A stretch of DNA of 64,000 nucleotides from Pseudomonadota bacterium (lineage in GTDB: Bacteria > Pseudomonadota > Gammaproteobacteria > Pseudomonadales > Pseudohongiellaceae): positions 51,082-115,081 of the forward strand of contig JAQBSZ010000003.1 of NCBI GenBank assembly GCA_027623555.1, given 5' to 3'. A model generated the notes under the pieces. The model saw nothing but the letters and a program-made list of their open reading frames with translations. It was not told the DNA's origin and ran no database searches. The translations under genes were made by a program, and so were the position numbers. Positions 5,849 through 24,093 of this stretch are shown here, piece by piece (the stretch's first letter is position 1; each line of letters begins with the position of its first letter).

Positions 5849-6312
5849 ATGCCTCCCCAAATAGCATGCGCTGGTTCCTGTCTCTGGAGCAGTCAGCTTT
5901 ACAAGCAGCAGCATGAGCAACGTCGTGGGAGCATGCCATTGTTCGGTGTGTCAGAAATGGTGTGATGGTCCATTCATGGAAGTGGAGTGCGGACCTGAGG
6001 TAGCCTTCACGGGCGAGGAACACATCGCAATCTTTCAATCTTCGGCGTGGTCTGAACGGGCTTTCTGCAACAAATGCGGTACTCATTGCTACCTGCGGGA
6101 TAATAAGCGGCAACAATCTCGGTCTGCAGGAAGGATATGGCATTCCTGCAGGCTTGATCGACAGTCCTCAGGCTTTGAGTTTCGAGCTGCAGGTATTTAT
6201 CGATCAAAAGCCTGCTTACTATTGCTTCTCCAACGAAACCAGAGAAATTAAGAGCGCTGAGAGCCATGAAAAAAATCCCCAGACCAGGGATTCGGACAGA
6301 CAACCGCCATAA
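5849..6312 (+). pseudogene. GFA-family (CENP-V/GFA) gene broken by two frameshifts
   Basis: Three frames together spell a glutathione-dependent formaldehyde-activating (GFA) family zinc protein. Frame one from the ATG at 5849 gives CAGSCLW. Two bases appear to be missing near 5884, and the expected CGAVSF continues one frame over as AVSFTSSSMSN, GACHCSVCQKW and FCNKCGTHCYLRD. An extra A near 6104-6106 shifts it again to NNLGLQEGYG, then VFIDQKPAYYCFSNET, ending at TAA 6310-6312. All zinc cysteines remain readable, so the damage is recent, or is assembly error. The track entry 5913-6251 is the middle frame only. An intact paralogue lies at 56051-56455. Confidence 0.82.
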
Positions 6313-6370
6313 CACTCAAATGCGCTAAAGCGTTTTTCATTTAAAAAGGCATCATGAGCATTGCGGCACT

Positions 6371-6706
6371 ATGAAGAAAGTATACTCACATGAAAACCTG
6401 GCAATCCTGAACTCGGCGAAGAATTTGCTGGAGATTGATGGCATCGAATGTTTTATCAAGAATGAGTACCATGCATCGGGTGGTCATGTTGGCTGGGAAA
6501 GTATTCCGATAGAACTATGGGTGCATGACGATCAGCAGGCAGCTAGCGCCGCGGCTATTCTGGCGAAAGGATTTACCGCTACCAGTGAGTCGCCGGAATG
6601 GGCATGTCTGCATTGTGGCGAGAAGAATGATGGCTCATTCGAGACTTGCTGGAAATGTCAAAAGGCTCCTGCCGGCACCGATCCTTCGAACAATAAATCA
6701 CTATAA
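6371..6706 (+). CDS. DUF2007 protein with C-terminal zinc ribbon
   Basis: A 111-residue cytoplasmic protein. The N-terminal half matches the DUF2007 'putative signal transducing' fold: KKVYSHENLAILNSAKNLLE, then the IECFIKNEY strand and PIELWVHDDQQAA. The C-terminal part carries a small zinc ribbon, WACLHCGEKNDGSFETCWKC, with two CxxC pairs of the RanBP2-like kind. The start is the ATG at 6371; no strong ribosome site is visible. It stands alone between the dead GFA gene and the cyclase. The family has no proven enzymatic activity; the ribbon suggests binding to RNA or protein, which is inference. Confidence 0.78.
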   Translation: MKKVYSHENLAILNSAKNLLEIDGIECFIKNEYHASGGHVGWESIPIELWVHDDQQAASAAAILAKGFTATSESPEWACLHCGEKNDGSFETCWKCQKAPAGTDPSNNKSL

Positions 6707-10053: not shown

Positions 10054-11334
10054 TCAGGTCTGAATCGAGGGGTTGAAGAAGTCGATATCTTCAGCATTCA
10101 GCGGGAACAACTGGGCGACACTGGATTGCTCCAGGCCACTCAAGACACGCATCGCCTGGTGCAGGTGCTTCGGCTCCAGGCGGACACCGTTGAGGCTATT
10201 ATCGACCTGCAAGGTGACGGGGTTGATGTTCAGTGCATTGTGAACCTCATCGGTGGCGCCAACCACACGGTTACCCCAGGTGGCGCCCTGCTCAATAATG
10301 ATGGCACTGCCGAATGGCCAGTGGTCTTTGCCTCCGCCGGCGTTGTAATACGGCGTGCGGCCGAAGTCAGAGGCCATGGTCAGCACGATCTTGTCGGCAT
10401 ATCCTCCGGCCTCGGCCGTGTCGAAGATATACGCCACCAGGTCGGTGAGCTTGGCAAGAAATTCGAAATGATCCGCATCATGGGTCTGGTGAGTATCGAA
10501 ACCATTGAAACCGAGTTGTGCCGAAACGCAGAGCCCGGACTGGTACGCCAACAGCGCTAATTGGGCAGCCCGAAAATCGTTATCTGGCTCAAACGTATCC
10601 GGCAACAAATCGGCAAAGGCATCCAGGTCGTCGCGAGTCGCGTTGGCGAGAAACAGGTTGTTCATGCCGGATTGCTGACGCGGCAACAAGCTCTCACTGC
10701 CCATTAATCGATCCAGGCGAGCATTCTGAAACTGGGTGATCAAGTCCAGTTCGCCAGCCTCAAACAGGTCATAGGTGATATCACCTCCCTGAACCTGCGA
10801 ATCGTTGACGAGGTTGCGGATCAGATCAGGATTCTGCAGTCGGCTGAAGCGGGTAATGCCCGCGGTCTCACTGTAACCATTAGCATGTACCAACGAGAGC
10901 GGCAGTTCTGGTCCGATGGCACTGGAGGCGATCGCGCCGAAACTCGGATAGCCGAAACCAAGGCGGCCGCTCCAGGTGTGACGGCGGCCGTCGTCGTGGG
11001 AGTTCGTCTGGGTATCGATGCCGTTGATCACCAGCATATCCTGGTAAAAACGTTCGAAGAACTGCTGGTTGTTCGCCACCGGCGCATAGGCGATGTTGCC
11101 GACCTGTTGAATACTGGCCGAACTTGCCCAGTTGTTAATGTTGCGCTCCCCTCCCTGGTTGACCTTGGGATCACAGAAACTGGTGACATCCCAGCCACCG
11201 ATGGCCGCCAGCGAAATGTAGAACTTACCGGTGTAAGGTTCCAGGGCTGACGCGCTATGCATTGGCCAGGGCGCGGTTACACCGAGTCCCGCCATGCCGA
11301 GTAGTTTAGTAAATTCGCGTCGTTTCATCTTCAT
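10054..11334 (-). CDS. DUF1501 protein with Tat-like signal
   Basis: A 426-residue exported protein of the DUF1501 family, a sulfatase/alkaline-phosphatase-fold group found beside cytochrome-type DUF proteins in marine bacteria. The N terminus, MKMKRREFTKLLGMAGLGV, is Tat-like though it has only one twin arginine. Family blocks are AAIGGWDVTSFCDPK, INGIDTQTNSHDDGRR near residue 110, and the late GFDTHQTHD, then TMASDFGRTPYYN and GGGKDHWPFGS, which carry the putative metal-binding residues. It starts 19 bases after the large heme-binding protein gene and is the last of a three-gene minus-strand operon. Biochemical role unproven in the family. Confidence 0.85.
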   Translation of the reverse strand: MKMKRREFTKLLGMAGLGVTAPWPMHSASALEPYTGKFYISLAAIGGWDVTSFCDPKVNQGGERNINNWASSASIQQVGNIAYAPVANNQQFFERFYQDMLVINGIDTQTNSHDDGRRHTWSGRLGFGYPSFGAIASSAIGPELPLSLVHANGYSETAGITRFSRLQNPDLIRNLVNDSQVQGGDITYDLFEAGELDLITQFQNARLDRLMGSESLLPRQQSGMNNLFLANATRDDLDAFADLLPDTFEPDNDFRAAQLALLAYQSGLCVSAQLGFNGFDTHQTHDADHFEFLAKLTDLVAYIFDTAEAGGYADKIVLTMASDFGRTPYYNAGGGKDHWPFGSAIIIEQGATWGNRVVGATDEVHNALNINPVTLQVDNSLNGVRLEPKHLHQAMRVLSGLEQSSVAQLFPLNAEDIDFFNPSIQT

Positions 11335-11353
11335 GTCTCGCTATAGTCGTACT

Positions 11354-14146
11354 TTATTCGTAGATAAACTTGTAGTCGCGCAGCATGTAATTCACTACCG
11401 CCGTCCAACTACGCAGTGTCTGATTCGGGTCTGACTGTATCGGATTGGGCACATTCTCTAACAGGCACAGTTCAGTAGTGCTACTCACGGCGGCTCCCTT
11501 CCCGGCTGCCACCCTGGCCTGCCAGATCGCTACGAACAAATCATAGGTCGCGTCGATCTCAGGATCATTAATCGAAAGATCTTCTCCCCATAAATTCATA
11601 TGCAGTTTCTGTATGTTGTTGCGAATTGCAGTGGGATTAGTTGTCGGCAGGGTGCTCATTTCAACTTCGGTGAACAACTTGCGATCAATCTGGTCCTTGG
11701 AAAAATCCAGCGACGCTATGGCGCAGGAGGTCTCGTTAGCCATAGCCGTAACTACCGTGCTCATCAGGGTGGTGAGTTCAGTAGCCCGCTCGGTGATTCC
11801 AAATGAATCAATGCCGCCATAGATCAAGCTATAGGCGAAGTCCAGTGCGCTGACAGTCCCGTAATCCCAGCTATAGCCGGTCGCATCGATCAGCTTGCGA
11901 TTCAATTGCTCAGGCGTCAGCAACTTGCCATTGCCGATACCCTGCAACTCGACTTCCTGCACCGGATCCATCTCGGTAACCGAGCCAGCGCGGAAGTGAT
12001 CGCTCATGGCGAGGTCCACCAGCATGTCCTTGAGGTTATGAGCCCCATTGCCTGCAGTTCCCGCCACGAAGTCGGCAGCCAGTTGTTGCATCAACTGCTG
12101 TTCTGCCGTGTAAGCAGCCAGGCTGGACAGGTAGTCCAAATCTTCAGGATTCTCTGGTTGAGCATAGGGATCCCGTCCGATCACGGCGGGGTACCAGAAG
12201 TGGACGGTGCCGAAACCAAAGCGGCTGTCCTGAACGAATTCCTGCGCCAGCCATTGCAGGGAATTGTCTGGATCCGGAGCCAAAAGCTCGCCAAAACCCG
12301 GTGCCAGCATGTCGGAGTACCAGGTATCCCCAAGTTGAAAGCCACTGAATGGATCGTTGCGGTAGGACCCTGGCAGTGAATTCAGTCCGCCGGGTTGATC
12401 GCGATAGTAACCGTCGTCGCCGTAATTCTGGAAGGAGCCTGCAACCGGATCCATGATGGTGTGGCAAACCACGCAGTTTTCATTGTTCAGCGTGGGATTA
12501 TTCTCATCGGCCAGCGCATCCGGGTCAGTGGTTCGTTCGGCCAGCGCTTCAATATCGACACCGAGGAAGAAGTAGTAAGCCCAGCGTGCCCGCGCACGAT
12601 TACGATTGGTCTCGGTCGATTCAAAGCGCGAGAGGAATGCCGGTGAGTTGAGAATGCCAGCATGAGGATACACTGTAGGAATGTTAAAACTCTTGTTCGG
12701 ATTATTCGGTCCGCAAATCGTGCAGCGATAGTACTCGGTGATTCTTCCCTCGCGCCATTCGTCGAAATCGTTGTAGTCATCGAAGACAACGTTGCCACCA
12801 TAAATCTCGGCTGAATAAGGATTCACCATAATGTAGTCGGCGGTCAGGATTTCTGTGTAGGGCCGCTCATTCGTTACCACGTGGGCAATGAGTTGTTCCG
12901 GCTCCTGAGCCAGAGCCGCACTGGCCAGCAATCGAGTCGTGCGCGTGTCCGGGTTCTGGTAGTACTGCATGGAATTCGGGTACCGGTAACGATCCACGAT
13001 ACCGAACAGGTTAAAAGAGAACGCCTCGGTAAGCAGTCGATCGTTGGCGCTTTCGATCAGGAAATCATTGAATCCGAATTCGCTCATCAGGGCGCGAATT
13101 CCGCTGCGCAACTCCTCATCACCACCGGTTACACTGGCGAGCTCGGCATCTGTAGGCAGTCGTCCGGCAAACAACAGTGCGGCCTTGCGCAGTGTCTCTT
13201 CATTGTCCATGCGGATTATCGCGGCAAAGATATTGCCGCCGCTGCCACCACCACCAGTGATGTCGGTTAACGCGGTAGCGACAAACTGCGACCACAAATC
13301 AAAGTCCGCAGTGCCCGCCGCCAGCTGTACCCCGCCTCCATGTGTCTGGCCCTGTGGTTTAGTCAGGATCAATGACGCGGCGTTCGGTACGGTCTGCAGA
13401 TAATTCATCAAGGTGTTGTAATTAATAGCCTGGTAGTCAGGCGTATTGGTATCAACATAATGCAGCGCGCTGGTACCGGCGATACCCCCGACCTTGTGAC
13501 AGACGATGCAACGGGCCTGGACAATCGGTGTGGAAATCGTGTCTTTGTACAGGGTAAAACTGGCCGCTTCGCTGTTGTCATCGGCGATGAAGAATGTCAG
13601 TGGCACGCCACTGAAATACAGCTCATTCGGAGCAGCCACCGTATCGTAAGCCAGATAGAGTGCCAGGGACGCATTGAAGACCCCGGCAGGCCCGAAGGGG
13701 ACGTCATCGACGATGGTAATCGCTTCACTGGCCTGTAAGGTCTTGTTTGGAATGGCCGCTTGCAAACCTTCCAGGGTGGAATCCCACAGCTCATAGGCGC
13801 CAGACTCCACTCGCATGAAGACCTGCTCTCCCATGGCAATAAGTACATACAGGTTACCGGTGCTATTCACATGGCCCGGCTCCACCTGGATTTCTGTCAT
13901 TACATCTATGGGCTGGTCGAAGGCAAAACTGAAGCCGTAAGAGACGCCATTGTCGGCGGAGGCACCGGCAAAGAATCTTGCCGAGGTTGGCGTACCGGTC
14001 AGACTACTTGGGGCAGTGAGTTCGGGCAGCTGCGCCACCGCCAGGGAGGCGAACAGCGGCAAGCCAATAGCAGCTAGTCGCTGCAGGCATTTAAGCCTGG
14101 TTGATCTGTTGCTGTTGCTGCTATTAGTCATCATCGCTGTTCTCAT
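11354..14146 (-). CDS. Large secreted heme-binding protein (DUF1588-like)
   Basis: A 930-residue exported protein. After a signal peptide (cleaved near LAVAQ), residues to about 300 form a module shared with the next gene, ending in a c-type heme motif CIVCH at about residue 213 and a conserved LHYVDTNTPDYQAINYNTLM block. The rest resembles the planctomycete-type cytochrome proteins with DUF1592/DUF1588-like domains: LLFAGRLPTDAELASV, NERPYTEILTADYIMVNP, a CTIC pair, then NENCVVCHTIMDPVAGSF with a second CxxCH. It should be a periplasmic electron-transfer or heme protein. The start is uncertain: the first ATG (14146) has GGAG almost touching it, so methionine 5 or 6 may be used. Same operon as its neighbours. 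Confidence 0.8.
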   Translation of the reverse strand: MRTAMMTNSSNSNRSTRLKCLQRLAAIGLPLFASLAVAQLPELTAPSSLTGTPTSARFFAGASADNGVSYGFSFAFDQPIDVMTEIQVEPGHVNSTGNLYVLIAMGEQVFMRVESGAYELWDSTLEGLQAAIPNKTLQASEAITIVDDVPFGPAGVFNASLALYLAYDTVAAPNELYFSGVPLTFFIADDNSEAASFTLYKDTISTPIVQARCIVCHKVGGIAGTSALHYVDTNTPDYQAINYNTLMNYLQTVPNAASLILTKPQGQTHGGGVQLAAGTADFDLWSQFVATALTDITGGGGSGGNIFAAIIRMDNEETLRKAALLFAGRLPTDAELASVTGGDEELRSGIRALMSEFGFNDFLIESANDRLLTEAFSFNLFGIVDRYRYPNSMQYYQNPDTRTTRLLASAALAQEPEQLIAHVVTNERPYTEILTADYIMVNPYSAEIYGGNVVFDDYNDFDEWREGRITEYYRCTICGPNNPNKSFNIPTVYPHAGILNSPAFLSRFESTETNRNRARARWAYYFFLGVDIEALAERTTDPDALADENNPTLNNENCVVCHTIMDPVAGSFQNYGDDGYYRDQPGGLNSLPGSYRNDPFSGFQLGDTWYSDMLAPGFGELLAPDPDNSLQWLAQEFVQDSRFGFGTVHFWYPAVIGRDPYAQPENPEDLDYLSSLAAYTAEQQLMQQLAADFVAGTAGNGAHNLKDMLVDLAMSDHFRAGSVTEMDPVQEVELQGIGNGKLLTPEQLNRKLIDATGYSWDYGTVSALDFAYSLIYGGIDSFGITERATELTTLMSTVVTAMANETSCAIASLDFSKDQIDRKLFTEVEMSTLPTTNPTAIRNNIQKLHMNLWGEDLSINDPEIDATYDLFVAIWQARVAAGKGAAVSSTTELCLLENVPNPIQSDPNQTLRSWTAVVNYMLRDYKFIYE

Positions 14147-14177
14147 GCTCCAAAAATTGCCTGGTTATGTCCGCCGA

Positions 14178-15020
14178 TTACTCAGCCAACACCTGATTCA
14201 CAAATGCCTGCAGGTTCAGAAAATCCTGGCTCGAAGGAGTCAGTTGCACACCACCGGTATGATTCATACCTTGCGGTCTTGAAAGAATCTCGGAAGAACC
14301 ATTCGGCACATTTTTAATGTAGTTCACCAGCGTGTTGTAATTGGTGGTCTGAAAATTGGCAACCCCGCTATTCACATAATGCAGAGCACTGTCCGTCGCT
14401 ACACCACCGACTTGATGGCAGATGATGCACTTGGCCTGAATAATGGGAGAGGAGATCGTGTCGACATACAGCTGCAGACTGGCTGCAGTGGTTTGTTCGG
14501 ATTCAATGGCTACACTTAAGGGAGCGCCACTGTAAAATATTTCGCCCGGCGCGGCCATGCTGTCATAGGCGAGAAAGATTGCCAGCGTGGTATCAGAAAC
14601 ACCCGCCGGTCCGAACGCCACATCATTGACAATATTGATCGGTTCACTGGCTTGCAGTGTCTTGGCTGGAAATGCCGCCTGCAAGTTTGGCAGTGACAAA
14701 TCCCAAATTTCGTAGTCGCCAGACTCCACACGCTGGAAGTACAGACCATCCCAAACGATAAACACATAGAGATTGCCCATGGTATTGACATGGCTGCTCT
14801 CCACCTGAATTTCCGTGTCCACATCGATAGCCTGGTCGTAGCCGAAGCTGCTTGCAAAGCTGGAGCCATTATCAGCGGAGGCGCCACCGAAAAATCTCGC
14901 TGTGGTCGGTGCACCACTTATACTGGAAGGCGACCCCAGTTCTGGCAATTGCGCCATGGCAGCAGGGCTTACCAAACCCGCTAGAACCAGAGAGAGTACT
15001 GCTGTCTGTAAATTTTTCAT
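14178..15020 (-). CDS. Secreted monoheme protein, paralogue of the next gene's N terminus
   Basis: A 280-residue exported protein with a signal peptide ending in AMAQLPEL. Over almost its whole length it parallels the first 300 residues of the 930-residue downstream product: RFFGGASADNGSSF versus RFFAGASADNGVSY, KTLQASEPINIV versus KTLQASEAITIV, and CIICHQVGG versus CIVCHKVGG. It has one CxxCH heme motif near residue 196 and ends in NLQAFVNQVLAE. It is the first gene of the DUF1501 operon, 31 bases before the large protein. This is a free-standing copy of the module, probably a periplasmic electron carrier partner. Binding of heme is inferred from the motif. Confidence 0.78.
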   Translation of the reverse strand: MKNLQTAVLSLVLAGLVSPAAMAQLPELGSPSSISGAPTTARFFGGASADNGSSFASSFGYDQAIDVDTEIQVESSHVNTMGNLYVFIVWDGLYFQRVESGDYEIWDLSLPNLQAAFPAKTLQASEPINIVNDVAFGPAGVSDTTLAIFLAYDSMAAPGEIFYSGAPLSVAIESEQTTAASLQLYVDTISSPIIQAKCIICHQVGGVATDSALHYVNSGVANFQTTNYNTLVNYIKNVPNGSSEILSRPQGMNHTGGVQLTPSSQDFLNLQAFVNQVLAE

Positions 15021-15197: not shown

Positions 15198-16598
15198 CTA
15201 CACCAGTCCAAAACCTGCGCGATAGACCTTGTCGAGATAGGCGTTGGCGCCATCGTCGTTGGTGAATCGCATGTTGGCCTCATCATATTCCAGTACCGTG
15301 TTCTCGCTGGCTCGCACGGTGGCGATATTGCCCAGCAACATGGTCTCGGTAAGGCGGCCCGCATAGTCAAAGTCCGAAGTAGTTACCTTGCTGCGGTCCT
15401 TGATGGCATCGATCCACTCCTGGTAAATCCCAGGCGACCTCGCCATTGTCCCTGCAAGTTGTTGATACTCCAAATGTTTTCTCTCAGGAATGAGACGTGG
15501 TTCACGACCATAGACGCCGTGCATGAGGGTATTGTGATCGCCAACGATCAATACCCCGCCATCGTTGTCTCCCAGCATCCGGCCCTGCTCCAGAAATTCA
15601 GGACGTTCCGGCAGTAATCCACCGTCATACCAGGTCATTTTCACTCTTGGACGGCGGCCGCGGGCAGGAAATTCAAAGTGAATCTTGGAGGCAATCGGAA
15701 AGGTTTCCAGATTTTTGCCGAAGCGGCTGGAGCTGGCGCTCACTCTATCCGGCAGGCCGAGATCCAATGCCCAGTACGGATGGTCGATGATATGGGCGCC
15801 CATATCGCCTACCACACCAGTGCCGAAATCCAGCCAACCCCGCCAGTTAAACCAGTGATACGCGCGATTCTTGAAAGGGCGATGCCTGGCAGCACCCAGC
15901 CACAAATCCCAGTCCAGATGCGCCGGGATTGGATCGGAGCCTTCCGGGCGAGCGATGCCCTGTGGCCAGACCGGGCGATTGGTCCAGCAATGTACGTCTG
16001 TGACAGTACCCAATGCACCGTCCGCCACTAGTTCATTGATGATTCTGGCCCCTTCTTCGGCATGCCCCTGGTTACCCATCTGGGTTACCACATTGGTCTC
16101 GCGGGCGCGGCGTGCCAGGAAACGGGCTTCAGCCACGGTGTGACAGAGCGGCTTCTGTATGTAGAGATGCTTTCCAAGATTCATGGCATAGGACGCGATT
16201 GGTGCGTGCATATGATCCGGTGTACTAATGAGCAGTGCATCTATCTCCGGATTTTCATCCAGCATGATGCGGTAGTCCCGATAAGTCTTGGCCTTTTCTT
16301 TGAATGGCGCGGCCCAGCTCTCGTTCATGGTTTCGCTAAGACGGGCGTCATCGATATCGCATACCGCATAGATGTTCTCATGGGCGACGGCCTGGATATC
16401 CGAGCGACCCTTGCCACCGGCACCGACGGCGGCGATGTTGATCTTGTCGCTGGGGGAAACATAAGCCGGGCCACCGAGGACGTGACGGGGCACGATCATG
16501 AACGATGAGATAGCCGCGGTTTTCTTGATGAATTCTCTGCGGCTACTCTGTGCATTCGCAGCACTTATCCCGTTGTTGCTTGTTGGTTTGTTTTTCAT
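15198..16598 (-). CDS. Gfo/Idh/MocA-family oxidoreductase, Tat-exported
   Basis: An NAD(P)-dependent sugar or inositol-type oxidoreductase of the Gfo/Idh/MocA family. I set the start at the ATG at 16598, not 16652, because GGGGGA lies just upstream. A Tat signal follows: SRREFIKKTAAISSFMIVP. The Rossmann motif is IAAVGAGGKGRSDI, and the family lysine block is LYIQKPLCHTVAEARFL, followed by VTQMGNQGHAEEGARI. The C-terminal half has WLDFGTGVVGDMGAHIIDHP, typical of the large secreted subgroup found in Planctomycetes and marine bacteria. It is separated by about 180 bases from the monoheme operon. Substrate unknown. Confidence 0.9.
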   Translation of the reverse strand: MKNKPTSNNGISAANAQSSRREFIKKTAAISSFMIVPRHVLGGPAYVSPSDKINIAAVGAGGKGRSDIQAVAHENIYAVCDIDDARLSETMNESWAAPFKEKAKTYRDYRIMLDENPEIDALLISTPDHMHAPIASYAMNLGKHLYIQKPLCHTVAEARFLARRARETNVVTQMGNQGHAEEGARIINELVADGALGTVTDVHCWTNRPVWPQGIARPEGSDPIPAHLDWDLWLGAARHRPFKNRAYHWFNWRGWLDFGTGVVGDMGAHIIDHPYWALDLGLPDRVSASSSRFGKNLETFPIASKIHFEFPARGRRPRVKMTWYDGGLLPERPEFLEQGRMLGDNDGGVLIVGDHNTLMHGVYGREPRLIPERKHLEYQQLAGTMARSPGIYQEWIDAIKDRSKVTTSDFDYAGRLTETMLLGNIATVRASENTVLEYDEANMRFTNDDGANAYLDKVYRAGFGLV

Positions 16599-16753
16599 AA
16601 GGTCCCCCACAAGAGCATTCAATTCAATTAGAGATTCTGTACCACTTACCAAATACTATTGCCCAGCAATTTAGCACATGGGCATCCCATTCATGAACAT
16701 TGGTAATAATAAATTCAGCGTAAAGTGCCCAATTTTTCTATTGTTTACTGTTC

Positions 16754-19343: not shown

Positions 19344-21704
19344 TCAATCCGGCAATCGGTAGGCAATGATGTATCCGCCCTCTGGATCTTCTTGATCAGG
19401 AGGCAGGGTGGCGAATCCGGCACCGGATCCCGTGGTTTGGTTGTACACGGGTATCGTAACCACGACAGTCTGTTTACCGGTCGGCGACAGATAGCTCATT
19501 GGCGTCGCACTGGCCAGGTACGGGAGTGGATTACTCCACAATTCTCTTCCGTTTAAGATGTCGGTAGCGCGAATGGTATTGTCATAGGTCGAAGCGCTGA
19601 ATATCAGACCCCCGGCTGTCGTGACCGTACCACCAATCTGGGGCGTGCCGACACTGATCGGTAGGAACGTCTTTAAACCCAGCGGCCCGATGTCTTTTGC
19701 CAGGCCGATGGGTTTCTCCCAGAGCAAAGAGCGAGTCTCCAGATCGATAGCGGCCAACACACCATAGGGCGGTTGATTGCAGGGCACGCCCAATGGTGAC
19801 ACGAAGCGAATGGTCGTGTGCGAATAAGGTGTACCGAGTTGATTTCCCGGCACGCCTTCCGGTAATTCATCGCGCGGAATCAGGGTAAGCTGATTACCGA
19901 CCAGCATGGGATTCACCACCATGATGTTGTTCACCTGGTCCACGCTGACGCTGCCCCAGTTGTGACCGCCCGCATTGCCGGGAAACTGCAGGATAGTATC
20001 GGTGCCAGGCACCGTGAAATGCCCTTCGTAGCGCATCTTCCGGAATGCGATGCGGCACATCATCTGGTCCCAGGGGGTGATGCCCCACATCTTGGCCTCG
20101 GTGAGGTCGGCGCGGAAATTCGGCAGGTCCATAGTAAAGGGCTGGGTAGCCGCCGCGTAGTCTTCCGGCACTCCGCCGTCGGTGGGTACCGGCAGTTCCT
20201 GGATATCGAAGATGGGCTCGCCCGTTTCGCGATTGAGCACGAACACCTCAGATCGCTTGGTAGGCACCAGCACTGCCTTGACCTTCTCGCCGTTGTCACC
20301 GGGCAGATCGATTAGCACGGGTTGAGCGGGCACGTCCCAGTCCCACAGGTCATGGTGCACTGTCTGATAAACCCAGCGCGGTTCACCAGTCTCGCCATCG
20401 ATGGCAACCACGGAACTGGCATACTGCTCACTGGCCTCCATGCGGTAGCCACCAAAATAATCCGGCGTCTCATTGCCGGTGGGGGCGTAGATCAATCCGA
20501 GTTCTTCATCGACACTGAAGATGCTCCATACATTCGGTGTGCCGCGCGTATAGACCTCGCCCCGCAGGGGTTGAGTATGGATGCCCGGCCGGCCCATATC
20601 CCAGGCCCAGGCAAATTCACCGGTCAGTGCATCGAAGGCACGCACTACACCGGAAGGCTCACCGACACTCTGATTATCAAGCACCCATCCCCCGACCACG
20701 GCATTGCCGCGCACGATTCCCGGCGGTGAAGTCTGAAAATTAAAGATCTGTGGGTCGTTGCCCATGTTTTCCTTCAGATCTACTTCACCGAGGTTGCCAA
20801 ATTGCACACAGCGCTCACCGGTTAATGCATCGACAGCAATCAGTCGGGTATCGACAGTGGCAGTAAGGATGCGTTGCTGACATTCACCGGCGTATTCTGC
20901 TGGCGCCTCAAAATAGGAGACGCCACGACAGGCTGTGGAGAAGTATCGGAAGCCCCCACCACCGGCATTCTCAGAATTAATCAGCGGATCGAATTGCCAG
21001 GCAAGCTCACCGCTTTCCGCATCGAGCGCGATAATGACGTTACCGCCGGCACACACATACAACAGTTCTCCGACTTGCAGTGGCGTTGCCTTGAATGCAC
21101 CACCCACACCGGTACGATAAGTCCACGCCACTTCCAGGTCTTGCACGGTGTCGCGATTTATCTGCTCCAGGGGTGAGTAGCGGGAGCCACCGAGTGTATT
21201 GCCATAAGACGGCCAGTCGGATTGGGTGTTAACGGTGTTGATGCCGCTGCGTGCGGTTAACGGATTAACGTTCCAGCCGCTGCCGGCAATGAACACGCCT
21301 ATCGTAATCAGTGCCACGAAGACGGCTACACCTTGGGACACTGTGGACTGAAACAGCGGCGGTGGCTTGCCGTTGTGAAGTGAGTTTCTCAACCACGGTG
21401 TCAGGAACCACAGTCCGATCGCGGCCAGGGGAAGAATCCGCGGAGCCAACGCCCAGAGGTTGGTGCCCGACTCAAGAAATGCCCACGCCACGGTGGCAAC
21501 CAGCAGTCCACCATAGATCACCGACCCCATCGAATCGGCAACCCACAAGCGTCTACCGGAAGCCACCAACAAGATACCGGCGAGCAGGTAATAGAAAGAC
21601 CCGCCCAGGAACACGAGCTGCACACCACCCAGGATCAATGGCGCTGCGATGACGAAAAGGAATATCGGGAAGATACGGGGTGGCCCTATGTTGTCAGTGT
21701 TCAT
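19344..21704 (-). CDS. Membrane-bound PQQ-dependent dehydrogenase (GCD-like), copy 2
   Basis: A 786-residue quinoprotein of the membrane-bound glucose/quinate/shikimate dehydrogenase family. About five N-terminal membrane helices (residues 10-150) anchor it. A periplasmic eight-bladed PQQ propeller follows, with DWPSYGNTLGGSRYSPL at its start and repeated tryptophan-docking strands such as LYVCAGGNVIIALDAESGEL. Electrons normally go to ubiquinone. It ends in GGYIIAYRLPD. The neighbouring gene at 21733 has the same length and layout and is a tandem paralogue. It ends next to the M42-like gene. The sugar or alcohol substrate cannot be predicted. Confidence 0.92.
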   Translation of the reverse strand: MNTDNIGPPRIFPIFLFVIAAPLILGGVQLVFLGGSFYYLLAGILLVASGRRLWVADSMGSVIYGGLLVATVAWAFLESGTNLWALAPRILPLAAIGLWFLTPWLRNSLHNGKPPPLFQSTVSQGVAVFVALITIGVFIAGSGWNVNPLTARSGINTVNTQSDWPSYGNTLGGSRYSPLEQINRDTVQDLEVAWTYRTGVGGAFKATPLQVGELLYVCAGGNVIIALDAESGELAWQFDPLINSENAGGGGFRYFSTACRGVSYFEAPAEYAGECQQRILTATVDTRLIAVDALTGERCVQFGNLGEVDLKENMGNDPQIFNFQTSPPGIVRGNAVVGGWVLDNQSVGEPSGVVRAFDALTGEFAWAWDMGRPGIHTQPLRGEVYTRGTPNVWSIFSVDEELGLIYAPTGNETPDYFGGYRMEASEQYASSVVAIDGETGEPRWVYQTVHHDLWDWDVPAQPVLIDLPGDNGEKVKAVLVPTKRSEVFVLNRETGEPIFDIQELPVPTDGGVPEDYAAATQPFTMDLPNFRADLTEAKMWGITPWDQMMCRIAFRKMRYEGHFTVPGTDTILQFPGNAGGHNWGSVSVDQVNNIMVVNPMLVGNQLTLIPRDELPEGVPGNQLGTPYSHTTIRFVSPLGVPCNQPPYGVLAAIDLETRSLLWEKPIGLAKDIGPLGLKTFLPISVGTPQIGGTVTTAGGLIFSASTYDNTIRATDILNGRELWSNPLPYLASATPMSYLSPTGKQTVVVTIPVYNQTTGSGAGFATLPPDQEDPEGGYIIAYRLPD

Positions 21705-21732
21705 TGTTCTGGCCTCGCTTGAGTAAATTTAT

Positions 21733-24093
21733 TCAGTCTGGCAATCGATATGCCATGATATAGCCGCCGAGTGGATCTTCATTCTCCGGCACCGTCACCC
21801 GTGCCGCGACGGCGGAATTGGTATTGTAGACTGGCACCGTTACGATCAGGGTCTGCTTGCCAGATTGCGGTGCCCGATAAACCATCGGCGTGGCATGGGC
21901 AGACCAGGGCAATGGCGCCGACCACAGTTCCTCGCCGTTCTCGACACGGATGGCACGTACCGTGTTGTCGAATGCGCCGGAATGGAAGATCAGCCCGCCG
22001 GCGGTGATGACTGTGCCACCCATCTGGGGTGTGCCGACAGTCACGGGCAACCGGGTGGGAATGGCCCAGGGTCCAGACTCCTTCGCGGTACCGATCGGTC
22101 GCTTCCACAGCACTTCCAGTGTCACCAGATCAACCAGTGCCAGCACCCCGTAGGGAGGCTCGAAACAGGGAATCTCCAACGGCGAAATGAACCGCGAGGT
22201 AGCATGGGCGTAAGGCGTCCCGAGCTGGTTACCCTGCGCACCTGCCGGCAATTCGCTGCGTGGAATCAGGCGCTGTATGTTCGCCATCAATAAAGGATTG
22301 GCTACCAGCAGATGGTTCGCTTCGTCGACACTGATGCTGCCCCAGTTAAAACCGCCGGAATTGCCAGGATGGTACAGGCTCCAGTCGGTACCCGGTGGCG
22401 TGAAGTGTCCCTCATAGCGGAGCTTCTTGTATTCGATGCGGCACCACAGCTGGTCATAGGGTGTGATGCCCCACATGTCCGCCTCGCTGAGATCGGGTCC
22501 GCGAAAGTCTGGAAACAGGGAGAATGGCTGGGTGGGTGACAGCCATTCCTCGGCTACCTTGCCCTGCTGTGGAACCGGGCGTTCCTCGACGCCGGCTATG
22601 GGCTCCCCGTTGACCCGGTTCAGCATGAAAATCTCGCCACGTTTGGTCGGCGCCAGCAGGGCGGGAATGATCTCGCCGTTGGGGCCTGGAATATCGATGA
22701 GTGTCGGCTGGGAGGGAATGTCATAGTCCCAGATGTCATGATGTACAGTTTGAAACGACCAGCGCAGTGACCCGTCACGGCCATCGAGAGCGACGATGGC
22801 TGCTGAGAATTGTTCCGACACATCCAGGCGCTGGGCGCCGAAAAAATCCGGCGTCTCGTTGCCGGTTGGAGCGAATACCATCTCCCGCTCTTCATCGACA
22901 CTGAACAGGCTCCACACGTTCGGTGTAGCGCGGGTGTATTCCTCACCTTCGGCGGGCTCGGAATTAATTCCGGGCCGACCCATGTCCCAGGCCCAGGCAA
23001 AATCGCCGCTTATGGCGTTGAAGGCGCGAATGACTCCAGAGGGTTCCCCCACTGTCATGTTGTCACGCACCCAACCGCCGATGACAGCGTTACCGCTGAC
23101 TATGGCTGGCGGCGAAGTCAGCATGTAGGAAATAGGGACACCTGTCCCCATACCAACGGAGAGATCGACCTCGCCCTCATAACCGAAGCTGATACAGGGT
23201 TGGCCATTCCTGGCATCCAGTGCGATCAGACGCGCATCGGTGGTGGCAGTCAAGGTGCGCTGCTGGCATTCACCCCGGTAGGATTCCGGCGCCTGGTAAT
23301 AGGTCACCGCCCGGCATCCCGTCCGGTAGTAACGGCCGCCGCTGGCATTGATGACCTCTTCGGGTATTTGCGGGTCGTATTGCCAGCGCCGTTCACCGGA
23401 TTCTGCATCGAGAGCAATTACCACGTTTGAGCCAGCACAGACATACAGCAGATCATCCACTTGAATCGGGGTGCCTTTCAATGATCCGCCAATGGCGGTG
23501 CGGTAAGTCCAGGCCAGTTCAAGATCGCCTACCGTGTCGGGATTGATCTGATCCATGGGGGAATAGCGGGACCCGGCACGGGTGTTGCCGTAGGCTGGCC
23601 AGTCGGTGTTCGAATTAACTCTAGTCTGGCCCGCCCTGTCGGGAACAGGATTCACGGTGTAGCTCGATCCAGCCGCCAGCACAAAGACCACACCAATGGC
23701 GACAAAAACCGCGATACCACGCACGACAACGGAAGAATGCAATGGAGAGACTTGCGGGCCATAAAGAGAACGTCTCAACCAGGGAGTAAGCAACCAGAGC
23801 CCGAGAACCGCCATTGGCAAGATGCGCGGTGCCAGCGCCCAGGGATCTACACCAGCTTCCTGGAACGACCAGACGATGGTGCCGAACAGCAACATCCCGT
23901 AGAGCCAGGACCCAACAATACTGCCTCGCCACAGCATGAAGGCGCTGAGCAGTAGCATGACGGAAGCGAGCAGATAGTAGCTCGAACCACCGAGTTGATT
24001 AAGCTGCCAACCCATCACTGTAAAAGGAAGGGCCAGCAATACCAGGAGAATCGGAAACAGACGTGGTGGTCGCACGCCCCGGTTGGCAGTCAT
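21733..24093 (-). CDS. Membrane-bound PQQ-dependent dehydrogenase (GCD-like), copy 1
   Basis: A 786-residue membrane quinoprotein, same family and architecture as the gene downstream: about five N-terminal membrane helices, then the propeller beginning DWPAYGNTRAGSRYSPM, the docking strand LYVCAGSNVVIALDAESGER, and an end block GGYIMAYRLPD. The two copies align end to end with many substitutions, so the duplication is old and the enzymes may differ in substrate. They are 28 bases apart on the minus strand, the second followed closely by the peptidase, which suggests one transcript. PQQ must come from the cell or the medium, as no pqq genes are in this window. Confidence 0.92.
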   Translation of the reverse strand: MTANRGVRPPRLFPILLVLLALPFTVMGWQLNQLGGSSYYLLASVMLLLSAFMLWRGSIVGSWLYGMLLFGTIVWSFQEAGVDPWALAPRILPMAVLGLWLLTPWLRRSLYGPQVSPLHSSVVVRGIAVFVAIGVVFVLAAGSSYTVNPVPDRAGQTRVNSNTDWPAYGNTRAGSRYSPMDQINPDTVGDLELAWTYRTAIGGSLKGTPIQVDDLLYVCAGSNVVIALDAESGERRWQYDPQIPEEVINASGGRYYRTGCRAVTYYQAPESYRGECQQRTLTATTDARLIALDARNGQPCISFGYEGEVDLSVGMGTGVPISYMLTSPPAIVSGNAVIGGWVRDNMTVGEPSGVIRAFNAISGDFAWAWDMGRPGINSEPAEGEEYTRATPNVWSLFSVDEEREMVFAPTGNETPDFFGAQRLDVSEQFSAAIVALDGRDGSLRWSFQTVHHDIWDYDIPSQPTLIDIPGPNGEIIPALLAPTKRGEIFMLNRVNGEPIAGVEERPVPQQGKVAEEWLSPTQPFSLFPDFRGPDLSEADMWGITPYDQLWCRIEYKKLRYEGHFTPPGTDWSLYHPGNSGGFNWGSISVDEANHLLVANPLLMANIQRLIPRSELPAGAQGNQLGTPYAHATSRFISPLEIPCFEPPYGVLALVDLVTLEVLWKRPIGTAKESGPWAIPTRLPVTVGTPQMGGTVITAGGLIFHSGAFDNTVRAIRVENGEELWSAPLPWSAHATPMVYRAPQSGKQTLIVTVPVYNTNSAVAARVTVPENEDPLGGYIMAYRLPD

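Follow-up and report, generated by a model that had tools for sequence, protein, structure and literature searches.

Proteins with PSCyt and PSD domains have been described in planctomycetes and Verrucomicrobia, and their function is unknown (PMC5615132; PMC2754498). The corresponding genes are abundant in some aquatic bacteria; some of them carry carbohydrate-binding modules, and they usually lie beside a member of one of two unknown gene families (PMC5615132). In the literature searched, DUF1501, DUF1588 and DUF1592 had no function that had been tested. The FAD dehydrogenases of the BcGDH type consist of a GMC alpha subunit, a gamma "hitchhiker" subunit and a multiheme cytochrome c beta subunit. 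In BcGDH, electrons pass from FAD to a 3Fe-4S centre, which uses three of four clustered cysteines, and from there to the cytochrome c subunit (PMC6719666). The locus described here is a variant of the PSCyt/PSD type of system, which is known but poorly understood; what is new in it is an uncatalogued two-part module.

The window is the whole stretch of DNA that was analysed, 64,000 nucleotides from a marine bacterium. At positions 10054-15020 the ORF list gave three consecutive open reading frames on the minus strand, in the order gene 1, gene 2, gene 3, with intergenic gaps of 31 bp (gene 1/gene 2) and 19 bp (gene 2/gene 3), which bears out the three-gene operon of the original prediction. 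No signal exceeding the shuffled expectation was found in a promoter scan. The two parts of the module are referred to as domains A and B, and the PSD4/PSCyt3 part of gene 2 as C. The features of the locus are as follows.

15198-16652, minus strand: Gfo/Idh/MocA oxidoreductase of TAT type (Pfam), directly upstream of gene 1 with a 177-bp gap
14178-15020, minus strand: gene 1, an open reading frame of 280 aa, the free A-B module
14499-14954, minus strand: domain A of gene 1, an uncatalogued beta-sandwich that is also found on unrelated secreted proteins
14187-14489, minus strand: domain B of gene 1, a monoheme cytochrome-like helical domain (CxxCH ... HxGG)
14415-14429, minus strand: CIICH heme-attachment motif, residues 198-202 of gene 1
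14259-14261, minus strand: H254 of gene 1, in HxGG, the predicted second (distal) heme ligand
11354-14146, minus strand: gene 2, 930 aa, A-B module plus C, with two CxxCH motifs
13259-14032, minus strand: A-B module of gene 2, residues 39-296, with CIVCH at 13496-13510 and His269 at 13340-13342
12797-12925, minus strand: PSD4 (DUF1592, PF07631) match of gene 2, residues 408-450
12395-12661, minus strand: PSCyt3 (DUF1588, PF07627) match of gene 2, residues 496-584, with CVVCH at 12461-12475
10054-11334, minus strand: gene 3, 426 aa, DUF1501 protein of a divergent branch with a twin-arginine signal (KRREFTKLL)

Inspection by eye assigned Sec-type signals to gene 1, with cleavage likely after AMA, and to gene 2, and a twin-arginine signal to gene 3; the products of all three genes are probably exported. 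The Gfo/Idh/MocA-type gene is a possible fourth member of the operon, and a gene of this type adjoins the module in about a dozen relatives. At 19344-24093 of the window, also on the minus strand, two adjacent 786-aa PQQ-dependent dehydrogenases (Pfam PQQ, with an N-terminal hydrophobic part; 59% mutual identity) lie beside an M42 peptidase, and parts of this PQQ dehydrogenase/M42 peptidase block are again present near the module in many relatives.

Gene 1 (residues 1-280) and gene 2 (residues 18-295) aligned with an identity of 56% (E=1e-104), and the match is therefore not a matter of chance. A heme-binding module nearly the same in free and fused form had been claimed. The sharing does extend over all of gene 1, but "nearly the same" overstates an identity of 56%. 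The AlphaFold model of gene 1, which was confident (mean pLDDT 92.9), consisted of a beta-sandwich followed by four helices. The description as a heme-binding module also needed amending, as the shared stretch holds two domains with the heme motif in the second only, and the first recurs in the same genome without heme. The idea of a single heme-binding module was rejected, since many proteins carry A but lack B, and B also occurs separately from A.

A known, widely annotated domain that would account for the module was searched for, and none was found. Pfam and NCBIfam held no family for domain A or domain B; among 73 relatives of the module, 72 had no Pfam match and one had a borderline match to Cytochrome_CBB3. 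A sequence search of the PDB gave no convincing match for the module, and Foldseek with the gene 1 model returned no PDB fold match at E<=0.001. These results identify the module as an uncatalogued family, in agreement with the original prediction. Of the 137 genomes of the bacterial family, 129 contained a match to gene 1, in A, in B or in both.

Domain A covers approximately residues 23-174 of gene 1. Its best fold matches were generic Ig-like or ML-like sandwiches, with no strong match in the PDB. In the window's genome it was found without a heme motif on an alpha/beta hydrolase, one M10 and two M12B metalloproteases and one more exported protein. In a sample of 370 genomes from the class it was detected in 6, where its carriers were GH5-like, BNR/sortilin, beta-propeller, Lcl_C and Ig-like proteins. 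As an uncatalogued accessory domain that has expanded in this bacterial family and sits on many kinds of exported protein, domain A is a candidate for addition to Pfam.

Domain B covers approximately residues 178-278 of gene 1. As in c-type cytochromes, CxxCH was combined with an invariant distal-ligand candidate in all B domains compared: C198, C201 and H202 of the CIICH motif and H254 of HxGG were each invariant (57/57), and no conserved Met was found when it was sought across the 57 domains. With an invariant second His in HxGG and no conserved Met, bis-His ligation is predicted, i.e. the heme of domain B would be held between two histidines. In contrast to HxGG in domain B, an MPP motif comes after CxxCH in the genome's eight canonical PSCyt3 proteins, in agreement with the common His/Met pattern. 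Domain B was also considered as the canonical PSCyt N-terminal domain, which was not supported, HxGG standing in place of MPP. Heme is probably attached to the module, and the invariance of CxxCH and of the second His supports the earlier proposal of an exported heme module with a likely electron-transfer role. Some other large proteins contain domain B but not A, and one of these also has a PSD1 domain. Both L170 and L171 have domain B inside large proteins lacking domain A, that of L170 with HYR repeats.

The two heme motifs of gene 2 are CIVCH (residues 213-217) and CVVCH (residues 558-562). The second CxxCH and the DUF1588-like domains that had been noted in gene 2 were confirmed. In Pfam, both domain matches exceeded the curated cut-offs: PSCyt3 (E=1e-6; 29.3 vs 27 bits) was found in 29/29 relatives and PSD4 (E=5e-5; 24.2 vs 23.3 bits) in 21/29. 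The structure model of gene 2 was of moderate confidence (mean pLDDT 76.7), and a fold search with it thus says little. Gene 3 proved to be a DUF1501 protein as stated before (PF07394; E=6e-19; 68.8 bits vs a cut-off of 27 bits), and D49, D280, H282, D323 and H338 were among the residues invariant in 11 relatives. DUF1501 is assigned to the alkaline-phosphatase superfamily, whose metal site these residues may form. Gene 3 could encode a hydrolase and not an oxidoreductase component.

In this genome, eight canonical PSCyt3 genes each adjoin a DUF1552/HXXSHH gene and three PSCyt2 genes each adjoin a canonical DUF1501 gene, whereas three weak PSCyt3-like genes (in the window, C26 and C35) adjoin divergent DUF1501 genes. 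The PSCyt3 gene of the window has DUF1501 as its partner, and not DUF1552/HXXSHH as the eight canonical genes have. With a weak PSCyt3-like protein and a divergent DUF1501, the gene 2/gene 3 pair thus belongs to a third, hybrid class. When co-occurrence of the module with DUF1501 was checked, the fused gene was consistently paired: a DUF1501 gene followed it wherever the contig continued (17 relatives and the window). A second A-B-C subfamily (L060-L069) of about 1000-1200 aa, with 35-43% identity to gene 2, was found in several genera, mostly with a DUF1501-like gene after it. At L174 (377-9754), in the same genome as the window, a further PSCyt3-like/DUF1501 pair is preceded by Pectinacetylesterase-like and PhoPQ_related genes, a hint of a carbohydrate context. 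The seventh DUF1501 gene of this genome adjoins a DUF1800 gene (L219, 1268-4386).

We consider it reasonably probable that the module is an interchangeable periplasmic electron-transfer part, that genes 2 and 3 oxidise a substrate, and that gene 1 carries electrons for them or for a neighbouring dehydrogenase. The domain make-up, the conserved ligand residues, the gene pairing, the paralogue history and the selection on the module after loss of the fused part were computed; electron transfer and the direction of electron flow we infer. Domain B would be a one-heme c-type cytochrome domain on the beta-sandwich accessory domain A, and gene 2 a divergent two-heme Planctomycete-type PSCyt3/PSD4 protein with A-B as its N-terminal cytochrome and gene 3 as its DUF1501 partner. 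This pair would oxidise a periplasmic substrate, perhaps carbohydrate-derived, and electrons would pass from the PSCyt3 heme to the B heme. Gene 1, an old paralogue, would act as electron carrier for the pair or for a neighbouring periplasmic dehydrogenase.

A possible dehydrogenase partner was seen in relatives. Six loci (L101, L103, L104, L108, L109 and L110, the contig of the last ending within the third gene) had the order A-B-C, DUF1501, Gluconate_2-dh3, GMC oxidoreductase. In three more (L124, L130 and L132) C and DUF1501 were missing, the Gluconate_2-dh3/GMC pair came immediately after A-B, and no other CxxCH protein was found in the locus; these modules belonged to the fused lineage and occupied three nested tree positions. 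L124 has a deletion scar at 5969-6476, where the GMC coding tail overlaps and runs past the module stop codon, and a second Gluconate_2-dh3/GMC pair downstream of the scar; of the three truncated modules, this one may be in decay. Pairwise dN/dS of the truncated modules against their fused sisters was 0.17 (L132), 0.065 (L130, resting on a saturated dS of 3.2) and 0.10 (L124). These values are like those between intact fused controls (0.05-0.13), so the module is still under purifying selection.

The GMC proteins beside A-B carry a CIHCGxCNGYGC cluster (CxxCxxCxxxxC), and by analogy the adjacency would put A-B in the slot of the BcGDH cytochrome c subunit. Of the 137 genomes of the family, 114 had a Gluconate_2-dh3 gene, and related GMC pairs, where inspected, usually lacked an adjoining heme gene, so the adjacency of module and pair is suggestive and serves as a lead. 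Since the pair is found almost throughout the family, its co-occurrence with the module carries no information and was set aside. The GMC pair nearest to the window operon lies about 60 kb away on the same contig. Retention of a selected heme module beside a flavodehydrogenase after loss of PSCyt3 and DUF1501 gives a concrete hint to the role of PSCyt/PSD proteins. We suggest only tentatively, and with considerable doubt, that PSCyt3-like proteins with DUF1501 form a third class of Planctomycete-type cytochromes with a separable bis-His module as electron arm, which would also serve GMC flavodehydrogenases. If this were true, the PSCyt/DUF family as a whole would be dehydrogenase-like and open to ordinary enzyme assays.

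Free modules were found beside a flavin amine oxidase (L120), a cytochrome b561 (L121) and a multicopper oxidase (L112), and in genus g3 (L176, L178, L179, L181 and L183) the free module was followed in conserved order by a redoxin-like and a DUF3570-like gene (families checked with Pfam in L176). At L175, in G082, a B-type gene precedes DUF3570 and ApbE. The redox neighbours of the module vary between genomes, and some are single cases. A Gfo/Idh gene lay directly upstream of the free module in L123, L125, L126, L131 and L186, from genomes where no 930-aa gene was found, and also in some genomes that have one. This is in line with an explanation in which the tandem reflects neighbourhood history only, gene 1 serving an unrelated redox enzyme such as the upstream TAT Gfo/Idh and genes 2 and 3 being independent of it. 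We think this unlikely, as the short gap suggests co-transcription of gene 1 with gene 2, whereas the Gfo/Idh gene is 177 bp away, and Gfo/Idh enzymes usually work with NAD(P) rather than with cytochromes.

The free and fused modules had originally been predicted to form a self-assembling periplasmic complex; a model in which they pack together and so build one such complex with DUF1501 now appears distinctly improbable. The two forms are adjacent in the window, separated by 31 bp; the tandem also occurs in L105, L112 and L113, and L011, a frameshifted case at a contig end, resembles it. However, a free module directly upstream of the fused gene was found in only 4 of 18 comparable loci, namely the window, L105, L112 and L113 (comparable loci being those with upstream sequence available, window included). 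Of the genomes at least 90% complete that have the 930-aa gene (n=14), six had a free module and eight had none, and many genomes, several of good completeness, had a free module without the 930-aa gene. Since each form is present without the other, neither is required by its counterpart, and this argues against an obligate complex. In a tree of 46 modules, the free copy of the window fell among other free ones (99/94), and the window's fused copy grouped with a second fused one (100/98). On this tree 5 changes of the free/fused label are required; shuffled labels needed 14.9 on average, and all 500 shuffles gave more than 5. The free and fused modules of the window are separate old lineages, i.e. 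old paralogues; recent tandem duplication of the module was rejected by the tree. A self-assembling complex of free and fused forms is not supported by these data; for the module, the role of an interchangeable electron-transfer part is more probable than that of one half in an obligate complex.

A role of the B heme in sensing or binding a ligand (oxygen, NO or peroxide) in place of electron transfer, with A targeting a surface or polymer, is very improbable: A does occur, like accessory binding domains, on metalloproteases, GH5-like, BNR/sortilin and beta-propeller proteins and an alpha/beta hydrolase, but a bis-His heme would be six-coordinate, which is typical of electron carriers, and the neighbours of the module are redox enzymes. 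For the preferred reading, an interchangeable electron-transfer module, the gene 1-type product offers a small one-heme protein that is expressible and testable.

Domain B is like Class I cytochrome c and Cytochrome_CBB3 in being small and helical with CxxCH close to its beginning, but it falls below the Pfam cut-off and its second conserved residue is the His of HxGG, not Met. The likeness to BcGDH lies in the relatives where A-B adjoins a Gluconate_2-dh3 gene, which resembles gamma, and a GMC gene whose Cys cluster is similar. In contrast to BcGDH, each module has one heme and not three, the adjacency was seen in nine relatives, a minority of the genomes, and not in the window operon, and the multiheme cytochrome encoded with gamma and GMC alpha that distinguishes a BcGDH-type beta subunit was absent. 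Compared with canonical PSCyt3/PSD4 proteins, the match of gene 2 is weak, its N-terminal heme domain has HxGG instead of MPP, and its partner is a divergent DUF1501 instead of DUF1552. With the Planctomycete-type combinations, PSCyt3/PSD4 with DUF1552/HXXSHH and PSCyt2 with DUF1501, the locus shares a large protein, an N-terminal cytochrome domain, the PSCyt3 heme motif and an adjoining DUF-type partner. Planctomycete-type genes can carry an extra binding domain (PMC5615132).
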